From Polaribacter marinus (GTDB lineage Bacteria > Bacteroidota > Bacteroidia > Flavobacteriales > Flavobacteriaceae), in NCBI RefSeq assembly GCF_022662535.1, contig NZ_JAKQYM010000006.1, forward strand, positions 62,001 through 126,000: a DNA stretch of 64,000 bases, given 5' to 3'. A program made the translations under genes and the position numbers. Shown here one piece after another: positions 23,784-28,899 of this stretch (position 1 is its first letter; the number at the start of each line of letters is the position of its first letter). Under the pieces are notes generated by a model, which saw nothing but the letters and a program-made list of their open reading frames with translations, was not told the origin of the DNA and ran no database searches.

Positions 23784-23821
23784 CAAAAAAAAGAGCTGAA
23801 TGTTATTCAGCTCTTTTTTTA
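23784..23821. terminator. bidirectional terminator between tyrS and the YHS gene
   Basis: AGAGCTGAA and TTCAGCTCT form a nine-base stem with a short TGTTA loop, flanked by A and T runs. It can serve both convergent genes. Confidence 0.88.
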
Positions 23822-23835
23822 TTCAAAGAATATTA

Positions 23836-24276
23836 TTATTTAATAATTATTTTCTTCCAATTTTTATCTGCTTTAACTTTTAATTTTTCTGCCCCTTCTT
23901 CATGCCATAATTCTAAAGTATTTGTTCCCCAAGCATTGTAAAAAAGATATAATTTTCCATCTCTAATTTCGAAATTTTTAGGGTTTACAGATACTTTCTC
24001 TCCTTTTACACCAATTGCATATGCACAATAACCTCCATATTGTGGTATATATTTTTTAGGCGATTTTTTAAAAATATCTAAATTTTCTTTTGATGAAAAC
24101 TTAAATTTTACGCCATCAAATTCTGTAGTAAATTTTTTATTTCCTTTTTCTGCTTTATTACTAAAATAAGATACTACATCATATCCTTCTGCAATATATC
24201 CTTTTTTTAAATTATAATCTTGAGCAAAAAATGTTGATGAGATTGTTAGAAATATAATAGCAATTAACTTTTTCAT
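23836..24276 (-). CDS. exported YHS domain protein
   Basis: The 146-residue protein begins with a signal peptide (MKKLIAIIFLTISSTFFAQ). The YHS-type core follows: EGYDVVSYFSNKAEKGNKKF, then FDGVKFKFSSKENLDIFKKSP and KYIPQYGGYCAYAIGVKG. Such stand-alone YHS proteins are common in Bacteroidetes and proteobacteria; their role is uncertain, with metal or heme-related binding often suggested. It is the last gene of a run that includes the peroxiredoxin-like protein 77 bases upstream, so it may be part of the TetR-headed set. Confidence 0.87.
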   Translation of the reverse strand: MKKLIAIIFLTISSTFFAQDYNLKKGYIAEGYDVVSYFSNKAEKGNKKFTTEFDGVKFKFSSKENLDIFKKSPKKYIPQYGGYCAYAIGVKGEKVSVNPKNFEIRDGKLYLFYNAWGTNTLELWHEEGAEKLKVKADKNWKKIIIK

Positions 24277-24353: not shown

Positions 24354-25016
24354 TTATTTCATTTTTTTTAAAACAGATAATATTTCTGTAACTTCTGCTC
24401 TTTCTCTATAATCTGCATCTAAAAAAGCGTATTGAATGATCCCTTTTTGATCAATTACATACGTTGCAGCCAAAGGTAATTGATTACTTTCATCTCCATT
24501 TACTTCATTTAAACCAAATCCTGCATTATAAATTGTAGCAACTTCATTTGTTAATGTAAAAACGACACCAAATTCTTTTCCTATTTTATTACCAACATCA
24601 CTTAAAACAGTAAATTCTAAATTGTTTTTTTCTGAAGTACTTAATGAACTGTCTGGTAACTCAGGCGTTAATGCAATAAGCGTTGCTCCTGCTTTATTAA
24701 ATTCTGGAAATTTTTCTTGTAAATAATGCAATGTTATGTTGCAGTAAGGGCACCAGCCACCTCTATACCAAGTTAAAACTACAGGTCCGTTTTCTAATTC
24801 AGCATATAACGAAACAGCTTTATTTAGTGCGTTTTTTAATGTGAAATTTGGAGCTTTATCTCCAACATTTAATGCTTTCTCTAAGACTCCGGAATCTACA
24901 ACACTTGTAATTCCATCTGCATAAATTTTATTTTTTTCTTCTGTGAATTTAGCAGCTCCTTCTTTACGTTTTATATCTAATAAAGTATTTAACTCGCCCT
25001 TGTTTGTTGAATTCAT
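24354..25016 (-). CDS. peroxiredoxin-like / AhpC-TSA family protein
   Basis: A 220-residue cytoplasmic thioredoxin-fold protein. The active segment TWYRGGWCPYCNITLHYL has C89 and C92 as a CxxC pair. This is the pattern of the AhpC/TSA-type peroxiredoxin-like family and differs from typical PxxxTxxC peroxiredoxins. The fold start GDKAPNFTLKNALNKAVSL is clear. It begins two bases after the broken racemase gene ends, with the DsbA-like, EthD-like and AhpD-like genes further upstream, so a thiol redox or peroxide role fits the group. Its substrate is unknown. Confidence 0.88.
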   Translation of the reverse strand: MNSTNKGELNTLLDIKRKEGAAKFTEEKNKIYADGITSVVDSGVLEKALNVGDKAPNFTLKNALNKAVSLYAELENGPVVLTWYRGGWCPYCNITLHYLQEKFPEFNKAGATLIALTPELPDSSLSTSEKNNLEFTVLSDVGNKIGKEFGVVFTLTNEVATIYNAGFGLNEVNGDESNQLPLAATYVIDQKGIIQYAFLDADYRERAEVTEILSVLKKMK

Positions 25017-25018
25017 AA

Positions 25019-25768
25019 CTATATAATATTTCTTTTTTTAGATTCTCTTATTAATGCACTAGCTAAAACAGTTGTAGCATCAATAATTAAACTGTCTTCG
25101 ATTTTTTCATATTGAATTGCAAGCGGAATTTCTGTACAACCTAAAATTACTGCTTGAGCACCTTTTCTAGATAAATAGGTAGCTGCCATACTTAAGTTTT
25201 CTTTTGCTTTTTCATTTACAGGATTCGAAAATGCTTTAATTCCGTAACTAGAATCGTAAATTGATGGATGCACGAATAAATCTTGTATATCTTCTGATGG
25301 TTAAATTACTTCAATATTATATTTAGCCAATACTTCTGGATACACTTTTGCTAAAATTGTACCTGTAGTTCCTAAAACACCCACTTTTGTTATTTCTGGA
25401 TATGTAGTAGAAATATGTATGCCTACCTCTTCAATAAGGTTAACAAGTACACAAGATTCTGGTATGCTTTTTTCTATTAAACTTAAAATAGGTTTTGCAT
25501 GTGCAGTATTACAAGGAATACCAATAATGGTTGAACCACTTGCTATTAATGAAGCTATAATTTCTGAAATAGCAATTCCTGGATTAACATTAGTTTCTCC
25601 TAAAAGATATTTAGTACGGTCTATAATTTTATGGGGTACAGACATCGTAGAAACAGGTAAATGTTCTTGGTCTGACTTTGCCTCAGTAAGATCGTAAACC
25701 TTTTTTATTAAATCGATTCCAGCGTAACTACCAACACCTCCAACGATACCAATCATTTTATGTTGCAT
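25019..25768 (-). pseudogene. aspartate/glutamate racemase family gene with one in-frame stop
   Basis: Two parts in the same frame add to one Asp/Glu racemase (about 240 residues). The first part (25768-25304) has the start MIGIVGGVGSYAGIDLI and the first catalytic cysteine in IGIPCNTAHA. A TAA at 25303-25301 follows ...YNIEVI. The frame then continues without shift as PSEDIQDLFVHPSIYDSSYG, and includes the second catalytic cysteine in VILGCTEIPLA. No other damage is visible, so the loss is recent, or the stop is a sequencing error, or it is read through. A GTG at 25273 could in theory restart the C-terminal part, which alone would not be active. Confidence 0.85.
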
Positions 25769-25796: not shown

Positions 25797-26441
25797 CTAT
25801 TCTGCAATTAATTCTGATAACACTTGTTTAAAAGTAGCAACAGGTTGTGCTCCTGTAACAGCACTTTTTCTATTAAAAACAATTGTTGGTACAGAATTTA
25901 CACCCAAACTTTTCCAGTATTTTTGTTTGGTTCTTACCTCATTTCTTGCTTCTTCATTCTTTAGTTTTGATAATGCCTCATCAGCATTTAAACCAATAGA
26001 TATTAGTGTTTCTTTTAAAATTTCTACTTTAGAAACATCTTTTCTATCGCTAAAAAAAGCTTTAGTAAATGCCATTTTTAATTCGGTTTGTTTTCCGAAA
26101 TCTTTGGCGTACTCTAATAAAATGTGTGCATCAAAAGTGTTTACCATTCGCATTTCATCAAAATAATCGAATATAAAACCTAATTCTGCACCAGCTTCTG
26201 TCATCATTTCTTTCGATTGGTTTTGTTGCTCTGTGGTAGAACCATATTTTTCTGTAATATGTTCATTTACGTTTTGTCCTTCTACTGGCATATTCGGATT
26301 TAACTCAAACGGTTGCCATTCAATTTCTACTTGATCCTGAATACCAAGTTCTGTAATCGCTTTTTCTAAACGTTTGTAACCAATGGTACACCAAGGACAC
26401 ACAACATCTGAAACGATATCTATTTTTAATTTTTCTTTCAT
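25797..26441 (-). CDS. DsbA family oxidoreductase (FrnE-like)
   Basis: A 214-residue protein with a thioredoxin fold and a helical insertion. The active site is CPWC (C15-C18) in SDVVCPWCTIGYKRLEKA, and the cis-proline loop is in GVNSVPTIVFNRKSAVTGAQP. No signal peptide is present, so it acts in the cytoplasm, unlike true DsbA. This FrnE/2-hydroxychromene-2-carboxylate-isomerase-like group is linked in other bacteria to stress resistance and polyketide chemistry. It follows the EthD-like gene by three bases and precedes the broken racemase gene by 28. Confidence 0.92.
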   Translation of the reverse strand: MKEKLKIDIVSDVVCPWCTIGYKRLEKAITELGIQDQVEIEWQPFELNPNMPVEGQNVNEHITEKYGSTTEQQNQSKEMMTEAGAELGFIFDYFDEMRMVNTFDAHILLEYAKDFGKQTELKMAFTKAFFSDRKDVSKVEILKETLISIGLNADEALSKLKNEEARNEVRTKQKYWKSLGVNSVPTIVFNRKSAVTGAQPVATFKQVLSELIAE

Positions 26442-26444
26442 CTT

Positions 26445-26759
26445 TTAAAATGTTATCAATTCACTTATCTGAAACACTCCTTTTACATTACTGTAATTTT
26501 TTAAATCTGCAGCAAAAACTTTTACATGAGGGCCAAAAGCATCTTGAAAAGAAGCAACATCCTCAAATATTAAATGTGCAATTGCTACATAAGGAGCAGG
26601 TTCTCCTGAATTCCTACTTCCAATCCCTAAATCTAACTCTAAGCCTTTTAACGCATTCCCAACGGCATTAGAAATCATTGGTAAATGCTTGTTTTTATAG
26701 TAATCTACATCAAATTGAACACCCTTACTATTTGGGTACATTACAGACACTTTTATCAT
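26445..26759 (-). CDS. EthD family protein (dimeric alpha-beta barrel)
   Basis: The 104-residue protein resembles the EthD group: MIKVSVMYPNSKGVQFDVDYYKNKHLPMI, of which VDYYKNKHLPMI is the family mark, then a central APYVAIAHLIFEDVASFQDAFG. These are small dimers of the ferredoxin-like fold whose reactions are mostly unknown; EthD itself is needed for ether degradation. It sits between the AhpD-like and DsbA-like genes. A hairpin in the 75-base gap upstream may reduce expression relative to the AhpD-like gene. Confidence 0.87.
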   Translation of the reverse strand: MIKVSVMYPNSKGVQFDVDYYKNKHLPMISNAVGNALKGLELDLGIGSRNSGEPAPYVAIAHLIFEDVASFQDAFGPHVKVFAADLKNYSNVKGVFQISELITF

Positions 26760-26834: not shown

Positions 26835-27383
26835 TTATTTTTCCCAAGCAAAAGATTTAAAAGGGGTATCTACTGGAGTATTTGCAATATGATTAGTATA
26901 ATTACTAATTACTTTTTGTGATAATCCTAAAATGATTTCTAATACTTGTTGCTCGCCATATCCTACTGCGTAAAAAGCTGCTAACTCTTCTTGAGATACA
27001 TGCCCACGGTTACGAGTAATTGCTAATGTTAAAGTACGTAAAGCTTCTAACTTAGAGTTTTCAAGAGGTGTTTCGTTACGTAAAGCTTCCGTAATTTTAT
27101 CATCAACTTTCATCATTTTTGCAATAGCAGTATGTGCGGGTACACAGTAATGACATTCATGCTCTACATTAATTGTTTGCCACACTACAGTTAATTCTTC
27201 TTTATCAAAGGACGTTTCTGTAAATAACTTATGAATTGTTTGGTAAGCTTCTAATAAGCCTGGAGCTCCTGCTAATACACCGTGCAAACCAGGGATCATT
27301 CCATTTGTTTTTAACGATTTTGCTAACAATTCTTTACTACCTTCTGGAGCACTTTCTATGTTATGAATTTTTAAAGTTGTCAT
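26835..27383 (-). CDS. carboxymuconolactone decarboxylase family protein (AhpD-like)
   Basis: The protein of 182 residues starts at the ATG at 27383; an in-frame ATG at 27416 lies inside the operator and is unlikely. It carries the AhpD-type active site CHYCVPAH (C77, C80, H84), with upstream acidic residues in NVEHEC that relay protons. AhpD-like proteins are thiol peroxidase/reductase partners, so it fits with the redox genes that follow. A 20-base palindrome, probably a TetR site, lies 23 bases upstream. It is the first target gene after the regulator. Confidence 0.88.
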   Translation of the reverse strand: MTTLKIHNIESAPEGSKELLAKSLKTNGMIPGLHGVLAGAPGLLEAYQTIHKLFTETSFDKEELTVVWQTINVEHECHYCVPAHTAIAKMMKVDDKITEALRNETPLENSKLEALRTLTLAITRNRGHVSQEELAAFYAVGYGEQQVLEIILGLSQKVISNYTNHIANTPVDTPFKSFAWEK

Positions 27384-27406: not shown

Positions 27407-27426
27407 AACTAAGCACTTGCTTAGTT
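27407..27426. promoter_or_regulatory. probable TetR operator before the AhpD-like operon
   Basis: A perfect inverted repeat, AACTAAGCA-CT-TGCTTAGTT, with 9-base arms and a 2-base centre, lies between the regulator stop (27443) and the AhpD-like start (27383). It shares its left half exactly with the site at 28024-28043. Length and symmetry fit a TetR dimer site. Confidence 0.7.
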
Positions 27427-27442
27427 TTTGATTAAAAAAAAA

Positions 27443-28006
27443 CTAAAAATTTAAGAAAGTCATTTCTACAATGTTTTTTAATTCTTTTGTGTTAAATACT
27501 TTTGAAGAAATGGATAAACCTAAGAGACAGTTCATTAAGAAGTCGGTCTTTTTATTTATCATTTCTTTGTCTATTGAGTCGTCTTGTTTTAATTTTCTTA
27601 CAAACAATTGTTTAATATCATTAGAAAACTTTTTTAGTTCATGCATAATAATTGGATCTGAATTTTCTTTTAGTTCATTTATAGTATTTGTAACTAAACA
27701 TCCTTTATATAAAGCTGCATCCTTAGAAAATTCTAAAAAATTATAAAAATATTCTTGAATAGCTTTTACTCCCTTATTTGAATTTTCTAAAATCTCTGTA
27801 ATTTTTCTAATTTTCTTTTTATAACATTTAATACTTTCTAAAAAAACGCCTTGTTTGTTACCAAAACTAGCATAAATAGAAAATTGATTGATACCCATTT
27901 CTTTTTCTAACATACGAACAGAAGTGTTTTCATAACCATTTCTCCAGAATAAAGCCATTGCTTTTTCTATTACTTCTTGTTCTATATATTGTTTTTTTCT
28001 TGCCAT
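27443..28006 (-). CDS. TetR/AcrR family transcriptional regulator
   Basis: A 187-residue regulator starting at the ATG at 28006 (MARKKQYIEQEVIEKAM), which leaves the upstream site free; an in-frame ATG at 28033 lies within that site. The N-terminal helix-turn-helix is seen in FWRNGYENTSVRMLEKEMG and NQFSIYASFGNKQGVFLES, the usual TetR recognition helix with Y-x-x-F. The C-terminal domain (about 75-187) is alpha-helical and should bind a small ligand, not identified. The palindromes at 28024-28043 and 27407-27426 suggest it controls itself, the redox genes downstream and the lipoprotein gene opposite. Confidence 0.92.
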   Translation of the reverse strand: MARKKQYIEQEVIEKAMALFWRNGYENTSVRMLEKEMGINQFSIYASFGNKQGVFLESIKCYKKKIRKITEILENSNKGVKAIQEYFYNFLEFSKDAALYKGCLVTNTINELKENSDPIIMHELKKFSNDIKQLFVRKLKQDDSIDKEMINKKTDFLMNCLLGLSISSKVFNTKELKNIVEMTFLNF

Positions 28007-28020
28007 TTTATAATTTACCA

Positions 28021-28028
28021 CAAAACTA
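28021..28028 (-). promoter_or_regulatory. -7 element of the TetR gene
   Basis: Reads TAGTTTTG on the minus strand, a full TAnnTTTG match 15 bases before the start. It overlaps the left half of the operator at 28024-28043, as expected for self-repression. Confidence 0.5.
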
Positions 28029-28043
28029 AGCAATCGCTTTGAT
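28024..28043. promoter_or_regulatory. probable TetR operator in the divergent gap
   Basis: AACTAAGCA-AT-CGCTTTGAT: the left arm equals that of the site at 27407-27426; the right arm matches its complement at six of nine positions. It overlaps the -7 element of the regulator and the -33 element of the gene at 28093, so one bound dimer could block both promoters. Confidence 0.62.
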
Positions 28044-28067
28044 ATAAAAAAATAATTCCTATTTTTG
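28039..28067 (+). promoter_or_regulatory. promoter of the DUF6503-like lipoprotein gene
   Basis: TTG at 28039-28041, then 18 bases, then TATTTTTG at 28060-28067: a complete match to the Bacteroidetes consensus. The ATG at 28093 lies 25 bases downstream. The -33 element falls in the operator. Confidence 0.62.
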
Positions 28068-28092: not shown

Positions 28093-28899
28093 ATGGGCAT
28101 GAGAAATTATATTTGTATAACATTATTACTTGTTGTTTTTACAGCGTGTAAACAAACAACAAAGCCAGAAGAACCTGTAAGTTCTTCCGAAGAAAAAACA
28201 ATCGTTTTAACAAAAAAATACCCTAAAGATTTACAAAATATTTTTAATGCTCATGGAGGAATTGAAGCTTGGAAATCAATGAAATCTCTAGCTTTTACAA
28301 TAGAAAAACCTAACGGAGATGAAATTATTTCTACTAATTTAAATTCTAGAGAAGCTCTTTTAGAAAATCCAAAAACAACTATTGGTTTCGATGGAAAAAA
28401 AGTTTGGCTTTTAAATAAAACATCCGAAAAATATAAAGGTTCCGATCCAAAATATGTGTATAATTTAATGTTCTACTTTTACGCCATGCCTTTTGTTTTG
28501 TCTGACGATGGAATTAATTATGCAAATGCAGAACCTTTGATTTTTGAAGGAAAAACGTATCCAGGAATCGAAATTACTTACAATAATGATGTTGGTGCAA
28601 CCCCGCAAGATCGATACGTATTATATTACAATTCGGAAACTTATCAAATGGAATGGTTAGGCTATACTGTTTCTTTTATTGAAGGTATTGATAAAAAAGA
28701 ATTACACTTTAGAAGGTATAATGATTGGAAAAAAGTAAACGGATTGATGTTACCTCAATCAATAACAGGTTATGCTTTTAAAGACGACAAACCAACAGAA
28801 GCAAAGCAAACAAATGTGTTTAAAAATATTATAATTACTGAAAAAGCTTTTGATAGTTCTAAATTTTCAAAACCTAAAAATGCAAAATTTATTGATTAA
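28093..28899 (+). CDS. DUF6503-like lipoprotein
   Basis: A 268-residue lipoprotein with lipobox at C19 (VVFTAC). The mature part begins with a Ser/Glu-rich spacer, then FNAHGGIEAWKSMKSLAF, a recurring start of a lipoprotein group that binds or senses hydrophobic ligands by an LolA/LppX-like fold (my inference from HGGIEAWKSMKSL). I recall this family as DUF6503 in Flavobacteria, with moderate certainty. An alternative start two codons later (ATG at 28099) is possible. It diverges from the TetR gene and its promoter is covered by the operator, so it may be part of the same response. Confidence 0.75.
   Translation: MGMRNYICITLLLVVFTACKQTTKPEEPVSSSEEKTIVLTKKYPKDLQNIFNAHGGIEAWKSMKSLAFTIEKPNGDEIISTNLNSREALLENPKTTIGFDGKKVWLLNKTSEKYKGSDPKYVYNLMFYFYAMPFVLSDDGINYANAEPLIFEGKTYPGIEITYNNDVGATPQDRYVLYYNSETYQMEWLGYTVSFIEGIDKKELHFRRYNDWKKVNGLMLPQSITGYAFKDDKPTEAKQTNVFKNIIITEKAFDSSKFSKPKNAKFID

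Follow-up and report, generated by a model that had tools for sequence, protein, structure and literature searches.

Two palindromic sites and a natural recognition code suggest an autoregulated CifR-like TetR repressor in a Polaribacter marinus detoxification cluster

We analyzed a 64,000-nucleotide stretch of Polaribacter marinus DNA (contig NZ_JAKQYM010000006.1, positions 62,001 to 126,000; hereafter the window). Here a TetR-family repressor gene, tetR, stands ahead of a run of genes for redox and other enzymes and is accompanied by two 20-base palindromic sites, op1 upstream of tetR and op2 between tetR and the following ahpD-like gene. It is quite probable that tetR encodes a dimeric repressor resembling CifR of Pseudomonas aeruginosa, acting through two 20-bp operators on an autoregulated detoxification cluster and released from DNA through Cys103. 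The genes, the two sites, and the likely end of the operon lie as follows (window positions).

28093-28899, plus strand: divergent gene for a DUF6503-family lipoprotein (Pfam DUF6503, 33.9 bits; cut-off, 22.9)
28024-28043, no strand: op1, putative operator upstream of tetR
27443-28006, minus strand: tetR, CifR-like TetR-family repressor of 187 amino acids (aa) (Pfam TetR_N, 41.7 bits)
27407-27426, no strand: op2, putative operator between tetR and ahpD
26835-27383, minus strand: ahpD-like peroxidase-related gene (phmmer to the solved AhpD 6e8l, E 1.6e-37)
26445-26759, minus strand: ethD, EthD-family reductase (TIGR02118, 76.5 bits; cut-off, 30.5)
25797-26441, minus strand: dsbA, DsbA-like oxidoreductase (Pfam DSBA, 117 bits)
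25019-25768, minus strand: amino-acid racemase gene, split by an in-frame TAA into open reading frames 25301-25768 and 25019-25273
24354-25016, minus strand: prx, AhpC/TSA-family peroxiredoxin-like protein (Pfam AhpC-TSA, 99 bits)
23836-24276, minus strand: yhs, YHS-domain protein and last gene of the operon (NF041384, 122.8 bits; cut-off, 70)
23786-23820, minus strand: terminator-like hairpin of 16 pairs with a T tail after yhs, the likely operon end

The seven genes from tetR to yhs, the broken racemase gene included, all point the same way and are separated by 2 to 77 bases, a spacing that suggests their co-transcription up to the yhs hairpin. A preliminary description of this DNA had predicted a regulon of at least seven genes; seven co-directional genes running up to a strong terminator-like hairpin agree with this, and the divergent lipoprotein gene would make eight.

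The paired palindromes are real. op2 reads AACTAAGCA-CT-TGCTTAGTT, with nine-base arms around an asymmetric central CT and symmetry at 9 of 10 pairs; the preliminary description had its coordinates right and overstated slightly in calling it a perfect 20-base palindrome. op1 reads AACTAAGCAATCGCTTTGAT and lies exactly where that description had put it, with a left arm identical to that of op2 and a right arm that mismatches at three bases, which leaves 7 of 10 pairs symmetric. At three or fewer mismatches the window holds two sites, and none of 100 dinucleotide shuffles gave two (shuffle mean, 0.07). Seventeen bases separate the end of op1 from the tetR start, and 23 bases separate the end of op2 from the ahpD start. 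At relatives' loci, op1 mostly begins 38 to 42 bases upstream of the tetR start, and op2 nearly always starts 17 to 23 bases past the first base of the tetR stop codon. Both sites lie among candidate promoter elements and a run of T.

28060-28067, plus strand: candidate -7 box of the divergent lipoprotein gene, TATTTTTG
28038-28041, plus strand: TTTG within op1, candidate -33 element of the divergent gene
28021-28028, minus strand: candidate -7 box of the tetR promoter, TAGTTTTG (TAnnTTTG), five of its bases common with op1
27434-27442, minus strand: run of nine T directly after the tetR stop codon, ahead of op2 on that strand

On the plus strand the tetR -7 box reads CAAAACTA, and the TTTG of op1 precedes the -7 box of the divergent gene by 18 bases; TACTTTTG stands at the matching -7 place in the three relatives shown (L037, L198, and L051; L numbers denote loci and G numbers genomes). 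The claim that op1 covers both the -7 core of the regulator and the -33 element of the divergent gene is borne out by the five-base overlap and by the TTTG inside op1. TAnnTTTG stands in register at 116 of 122 op1 sites, fitting what we take to be the Bacteroidota promoter type, TAnnTTTG with an upstream TTG.

The two sites are conserved well beyond this genome. Calling a site present when at most three of 12 scored bases mismatched and at least five pairs were symmetric, we found both operators at 134 of 155 distinct tetR loci, op1 only at 10, op2 only at 9, and neither at 2. Control windows, counted without the symmetry filter, passed at two or fewer mismatches in 249 of 18,389 cases (1.35%) and at three or fewer in 2,100 of 18,389 (11.4%); because 11.4% of controls reach three mismatches, chance may account for a few of the weakest calls. 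An earlier count at four or fewer mismatches, which 2,217 of 4,582 control windows passed, was dropped, and the stricter cut-offs and the symmetry filter followed. Within the genus, 25 of 58 genomes have a TetR match at E 1e-10 or better, and 14 of the 17 full-length orthologues have both operators in the same places at three or fewer mismatches; L045 and L052 are without op1 and L053 without op2 at that cut-off. Operators of the K type (see below) with zero or one mismatch occupy 18 places in these 58 genomes, 17 of them (counted by hand) at tetR loci. The exception belongs to G027. Among the 17, the place in G012 lies beside a tetR remnant. At this last locus (L055, 1227-1530) the tetR frame has decayed, yet op2 (AACTAAACGGTTGTTTAGTT) and the AhpD gene are kept. 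Profile searches detected the regulator in 75 of 397 family genomes and 57 of 237 genera (E 1e-30), in 111 of 393 genomes of a second family draw that partly holds the same genomes (E 1e-40), and in 9 of 395 genomes of a class-wide draw (E 1e-35). A scan of another collection contributed 80 named loci, the best 80 of 394, among which the two nearest are from Polaribacter.

The bases that vary between these operators follow the residues with which the repressor would read them. In the window product the DNA-reading residues are V30-R31, Q41, and Y45, and operator bases 7-8 and their mirror sort by residue 41; the site scan ignores bases 7 to 14, and sites were chosen without the variable bases. 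In the first set of loci, Q41 accompanies GC at 23 of 23 and K41 accompanies other bases at 65 of 65. Across 91 aligned orthologues, no protein columns other than 30, 31, and 41 divide the two main operator classes without error. The 80 named loci, again the best 80 of 394, comprise 66 with Q and GC, 1 with Q and no GC, 10 with K and no GC, and 3 GINQFSVY rows (Q, GC). Merging with a third set of 48 loci gave 195 distinct loci, each assigned to a class when at least half of its half-sites belonged to it or, for TC and AT, more than half. Repressors with R31-Q41-Y45 have AACTAAGC half-sites (GC) at 85 of 86 loci with a site, the other being mixed, and K41 goes with AACTAA[A/C]C (AC/CC) at 103 of 104, again with one mixed; each class has one further locus without a site. 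Two rarer versions pair R31-Q41-N45 with AACTAATC (TC; 2/2) and M41 (Q-M-Y) with AACTAAAT (AT; 1/1). Counted by half-site, R-Q-Y repressors have 286 GC and 19 TC of 326, and K repressors have 365 AC or CC of 388.

Six distant TetR rows (GINR type or similar), with no site at two or fewer mismatches, were left out of these counts, as were L054, L055, and L056, in which tetR is fragmentary or broken; the excluded L054 reads MQ...K with AAAC operators, in agreement with the code. Class-level loci (L278, L279, L281, L282, and L283) and further extra loci were read and not merged into the 195, except that the second copies of G840 and G841 entered the set as L349 and L350. The unmerged loci fit the code, L278 and L291 only partly, at one site each; in L283 just an op1-like site is present.

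By register, positions 31, 41, and 45 correspond to Arg28, Gln38, and Tyr42 of TetR, with G38 matching TetR G35 (excerpts of PMC2723105), which is the recognition register of TetR(B) on tetO. Excerpts of PMC7102968 describe Arg28 and Gln38 as the only side chains that hydrogen-bond to bases, at +2 and +3, and Tyr42 as making van der Waals contact at +4. Because residues 31, 41, and 45 correspond to these base-contacting residues, the varying operator bases sit about where the TetR structure would place them. The genes here include no tetracycline pump, and the sequence of tetO differs from these operators. That operator and DNA-reading residues change together is strong natural evidence that the repressor and its switch would work as a pair. 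Conservation of both operators and this covariation support the preliminary description in the self-control that it had proposed and in control of the AhpD operon. If the code is true, a swap of R31/Q41 for Q31/K41 would shift preference to AACTAAAC.

Some genomes carry two repressors of this kind. Two full copies at E 1e-40 or better were found in 11 of the genomes searched (G150, G352, G269, G292, G444, G840, G841, G930, G948, G950, and G004), and the codes of co-resident copies differ in 10 of them; both copies in G004 are of the K type. Weaker second matches (G001, G003, G044, G031, and G033; E above 1e-20) were left out of this total. Random pairing would give differing codes at 0.51 per genome (p 0.007 for at least 10 of 11), and because several of the genomes belong to one genus, this statistic is only suggestive of copies being kept with differing codes. 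Second copies often precede other genes, namely, Prx and Old Yellow Enzyme (L155 and L350) or Old Yellow Enzyme (L154). At two further paralogous loci, L304 and L349, which encode the TC-type (N45) repressors, op2 is followed by a gene for a haloalkane-dehalogenase-like hydrolase, with a signal-peptide-like start read by eye and scores under the curated cut-offs of haloalkane dehalogenase models. The arrangement in L304 and L349 parallels that of CifR and Cif.

The predicted structure of the window repressor (pLDDT 90.5) is an all-helical TetR fold over its full length, its top structure matches are TetR-family proteins, and its N-terminal helix-turn-helix (HTH) is PF00440 (cut-off for the above score, 24 bits). 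CifR is the closest solved fold (6nsn; Z 21.3, rmsd 2.4 over 186 residues, 22% identity) and takes the first three fold rows; in profile comparison (E 3.7e-16, residues 3-169) it is second only to 2i10, a putative TetR regulator. Cys103 aligns with Cys107 of CifR, where 6nsn reads GC and the C107S entry 6nsm reads GS. The cysteine is invariant in 91 of 91 orthologues, and the motif GC[LFMIV] is present in 194 of 195. CifR is an epoxide-responsive TetR-family regulator that represses its own operon, and it is said, in the title of a 2012 paper, to use two binding sites; the sequence here likewise has two. MorB is presumably a relative of Old Yellow Enzyme, a gene for which stands in the operon at 3 of the 155 loci. 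Excerpts of PMC8244358 describe CifR as released by certain epoxides and the cif operon as holding morB. Unlike in the CifR system, tetR here is co-directional with its putative targets, and AhpD, EthD, DsbA-like, and Prx genes replace the epoxide hydrolase gene. Likeness to the reactive chlorine and electrophile sensor NemR of Escherichia coli is at the level of fold (4yze; Z 17.6, 14% identity). NemR controls nemA in a different operon, and an Old Yellow Enzyme target of that type is not in the window operon. According to excerpts of PMC8748444, NemR senses hypohalous acids via Cys106, and a sulfenamide with Lys175 was not supported in a sensor built from NemR.

The likeliest inducer is a cysteine-sensed, perhaps halogenated, electrophile, which we favor because of the CifR-like fold, the match of Cys103 to Cys107, the HAD-type (haloacid-dehalogenase) genes often seen in relatives' operons, and the kelp response of Zobellia. 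One HAD representative (1 of 57 HAD loci scored) scores above the curated cut-off for type II haloacid dehalogenase (169.3 bits; cut-off, 125.4); the operon in the window contains no dehalogenase. For a Zobellia enzyme of this class, excerpts of PMC8490876 propose a role in haloacetic acid catabolism, and excerpts of PMC9296495 report that Zobellia responds to fresh kelp by inducing oxidative-stress genes as well as a CMD-family protein. The kelp response is that of Zobellia galactanivorans, which is itself not among the listed loci (best 80 of 394); other Zobellia species carry the locus, and ZGAL_1598 is a candidate counterpart of the AhpD at this locus.

The regulon looks local, consisting of the seven co-directional genes and the divergent lipoprotein gene. 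In the 3.39-Mb genome, sites with three or fewer mismatches occur at 6 places, versus 3 for the reversed control; two are op1 and op2, three of the other four fall within reading frames of 90 aa or more, whereas the last, in L005, lies outside such frames. A degenerate half-site pattern with at most one mismatch found op1, op2, and one place in a reading frame (3 places versus 1 for the control). The search for more palindromes that the preliminary description had suggested thus recovered op1 and op2 and nothing else convincing in this genome beyond the intergenic look-alike in L005, and a wider regulon was set aside. The L005 palindrome (1501-1520) reads AAGTAAGCGAATGCTTACTT and is three mismatches from the operator. 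The divergent placement of the DUF6503 lipoprotein gene, which the preliminary description had put in the regulon, is a local feature, occurring at 4 of 155 loci. The lipobox of its product was read by eye. Lipoproteins distantly similar to it, by tblastn only (22-24%), are encoded inside the operon at 14 of 155 loci, and Pfam gave no family for the one in L044.

With duplicates counted, 145 of 171 loci have AhpD as the first recognized gene within 450 nucleotides downstream of tetR. Gene content at the 155 loci was scored as downstream tblastn matches on the same strand, not all of them certainly co-transcribed and with flanks of different lengths: AhpD, 134; DsbA-like, 77; HAD, 57; EthD, 52; Prx, 33; a 222-aa protein, 17; short-chain dehydrogenase/reductase (SDR), 17; operon DUF6503-like, 14; racemase, 9; MRJP/SMP-30-like, 8; YHS, 5; divergent DUF6503, 4; Old Yellow Enzyme, 3; a second CMD type, 2; and isochorismatase-like, 2. 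The conserved 222-aa protein recurs in the operon (L040, L044, L144, and others), and one representative had no Pfam or NCBIfam family. In the window, the AhpD-like product has a CxxC...H motif (ECHYCVPAHT, by eye) and scores under the cut-off of TIGR01926, and we take the DsbA-like product to be FrnE-like. The racemase frame is otherwise open around its TAA, and unbroken homologues of 252-257 aa occur in L040 (252 aa), L131, and L149.

Several points weigh against a cysteine-released repressor acting through both sites, and they are best considered together with the alternatives. Binding, expression, and induction are predictions from sequence. One or both sites are missing at 21 of 155 loci; L188 has no recognizable site, and L262 and L052 are mixed. 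With the HTH columns excluded from the repressor tree, the codes require five changes in all, which makes for few independent switches, and the only two independent pairs on well-supported branches, although both agree, are too few for significance; the alignment has only 137 columns, and the bootstrap has not settled. Few independent changes would suit operator classes that reflect phylogeny only, with residues 31, 41, and 45 as passengers, and each label does cluster on the tree, none of 500 shuffles scoring as low. We nevertheless judge this very unlikely. A single Q clade is rejected by the approximately unbiased (AU) test (p 0.025; 22 Q rows versus 67, after eight distant or long rows, two of them Q, had been left out), the three error-free columns all lie in the HTH, the rare codes (M41 and N45) come with operators of their own, and two switched proteins, L123 and L185, have hybrid operators. 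Both are Q-type repressors placed inside the K clade with half-converted operators (GC and AC half-sites), as expected for apparent recent specificity switches, and their exact tree places are loose.

A further point on the same side concerns op2. Its position is conserved, but it covers no canonical -7 box, and TAnnTTTG is in register at none of 137 op2 sites, so that the mode of repression is less clear than the preliminary description implied; it could overlap a weaker promoter or work as a roadblock. If op2 halted polymerase that had started at the tetR promoter, instead of serving a second promoter as its operator, with the T run aiding release of the stalled enzyme, the contrast with op1 in promoter motif would be explained, as would the run of at least six T within 22 bases before 129 of 137 op2 sites. 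That run has no preceding hairpin (1 of 140 below -8 kcal/mol; mean z -0.16 versus base-composition shuffles), hence no classical terminator, and a role as a terminator tail was rejected. However, it is only loosely tied to op2, being present at 7 of 12 loci without an op2 call, missing at 10 of 143 with one, and also found before 64 of 122 op1 sites, and a T-rich -33 with a degenerate -7 (TAGTTATA in the window) is also possible at op2; a pure roadblock therefore seems to us possible but on the unlikely side. The op2 palindrome can self-pair as well, and a terminator scan lists it on the plus strand. That it is an RNA hairpin, either an intrinsic terminator or an mRNA stability element, instead of a protein-binding site is scarcely credible and was rejected, because its bases follow the repressor residues, which is not required of an RNA hairpin; op1, before tetR, is of the same sequence class and varies with the same residues. 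As for the signal, the sensing role of Cys103 rests on relatives, and the window operon has no epoxide hydrolase, though the inducer of CifR is an epoxide; these two points also count against the reading. The repressor and operators could be as described and the inducer a specific non-covalent small molecule, such as an aromatic or lipid intermediate for the EthD, DsbA-like, and racemase enzymes, with Cys103 structural. Most TetR regulators bind ligands non-covalently, and the operon mixes catabolic-type genes (EthD reductase, racemase, and, in some loci, SDR) with redox genes. The near-universal conservation of Cys103 and its motif speaks against such an inducer, as does its alignment with the very cysteine mutated in 6nsm, and we see it as a substantial, if lesser, possibility.

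Most likely, then, the two switches govern tetR along with the genes for detoxifying enzymes, and the autoregulated, cysteine-released repressor would work as follows. A dimer would bind op1, over its own promoter, and op2, between tetR and ahpD. Occupied op1 would block the tetR promoter and cover the upstream element of the divergent lipoprotein promoter, and occupied op2 would stop transcription of the enzyme genes, whether from a weaker promoter or by read-through. An inducer reacting with or binding near Cys103 would take the repressor off DNA and allow expression of the whole cluster. Because tetR is among the genes expressed, the response would shut itself off and be self-limiting. The AhpD-like peroxidase, EthD-type reductase, DsbA-like oxidoreductase, peroxiredoxin, and YHS protein would clear or mend damage done by a reactive electrophile or peroxide, perhaps halogenated and of algal origin.

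Systems of this kind, in which a TetR repressor controls both itself and a detoxification operon, are already known. What is new is the strength of the evolutionary evidence and a natural code, in four versions or more, that co-resident copies apparently use; in the open-licence literature, searched by title and abstract start, we found no paper on this regulator or on natural code switching in it. We offer more tentatively, as a broader view that may well prove only partly right, that Bacteroidota, including Flavobacteriaceae, hold a natural set of still-evolving, mutually insulated repressor-operator pairs in which residues 31, 41, and 45 form a code for two operator bases, with four or more versions (GC, AC/CC, TC, and AT), that two copies are kept almost only if their codes differ, and that the pairs answer halogenated or electrophilic compounds, for example, from marine algae.

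A widespread and apparently uncharacterized stress operon of marine Bacteroidota would thus gain a regulator, operators, and a testable inducer class. The four codes, the half-converted intermediates, and the co-resident paralogues that mostly differ in code amount to a natural experiment on TetR-operator co-specificity, so that a question usually approached by engineering may become open to study in natural proteins. Should the inducer indeed be an electrophile or halogenated compound, the regulator would be linked to flavobacterial tolerance of algal defense chemistry.
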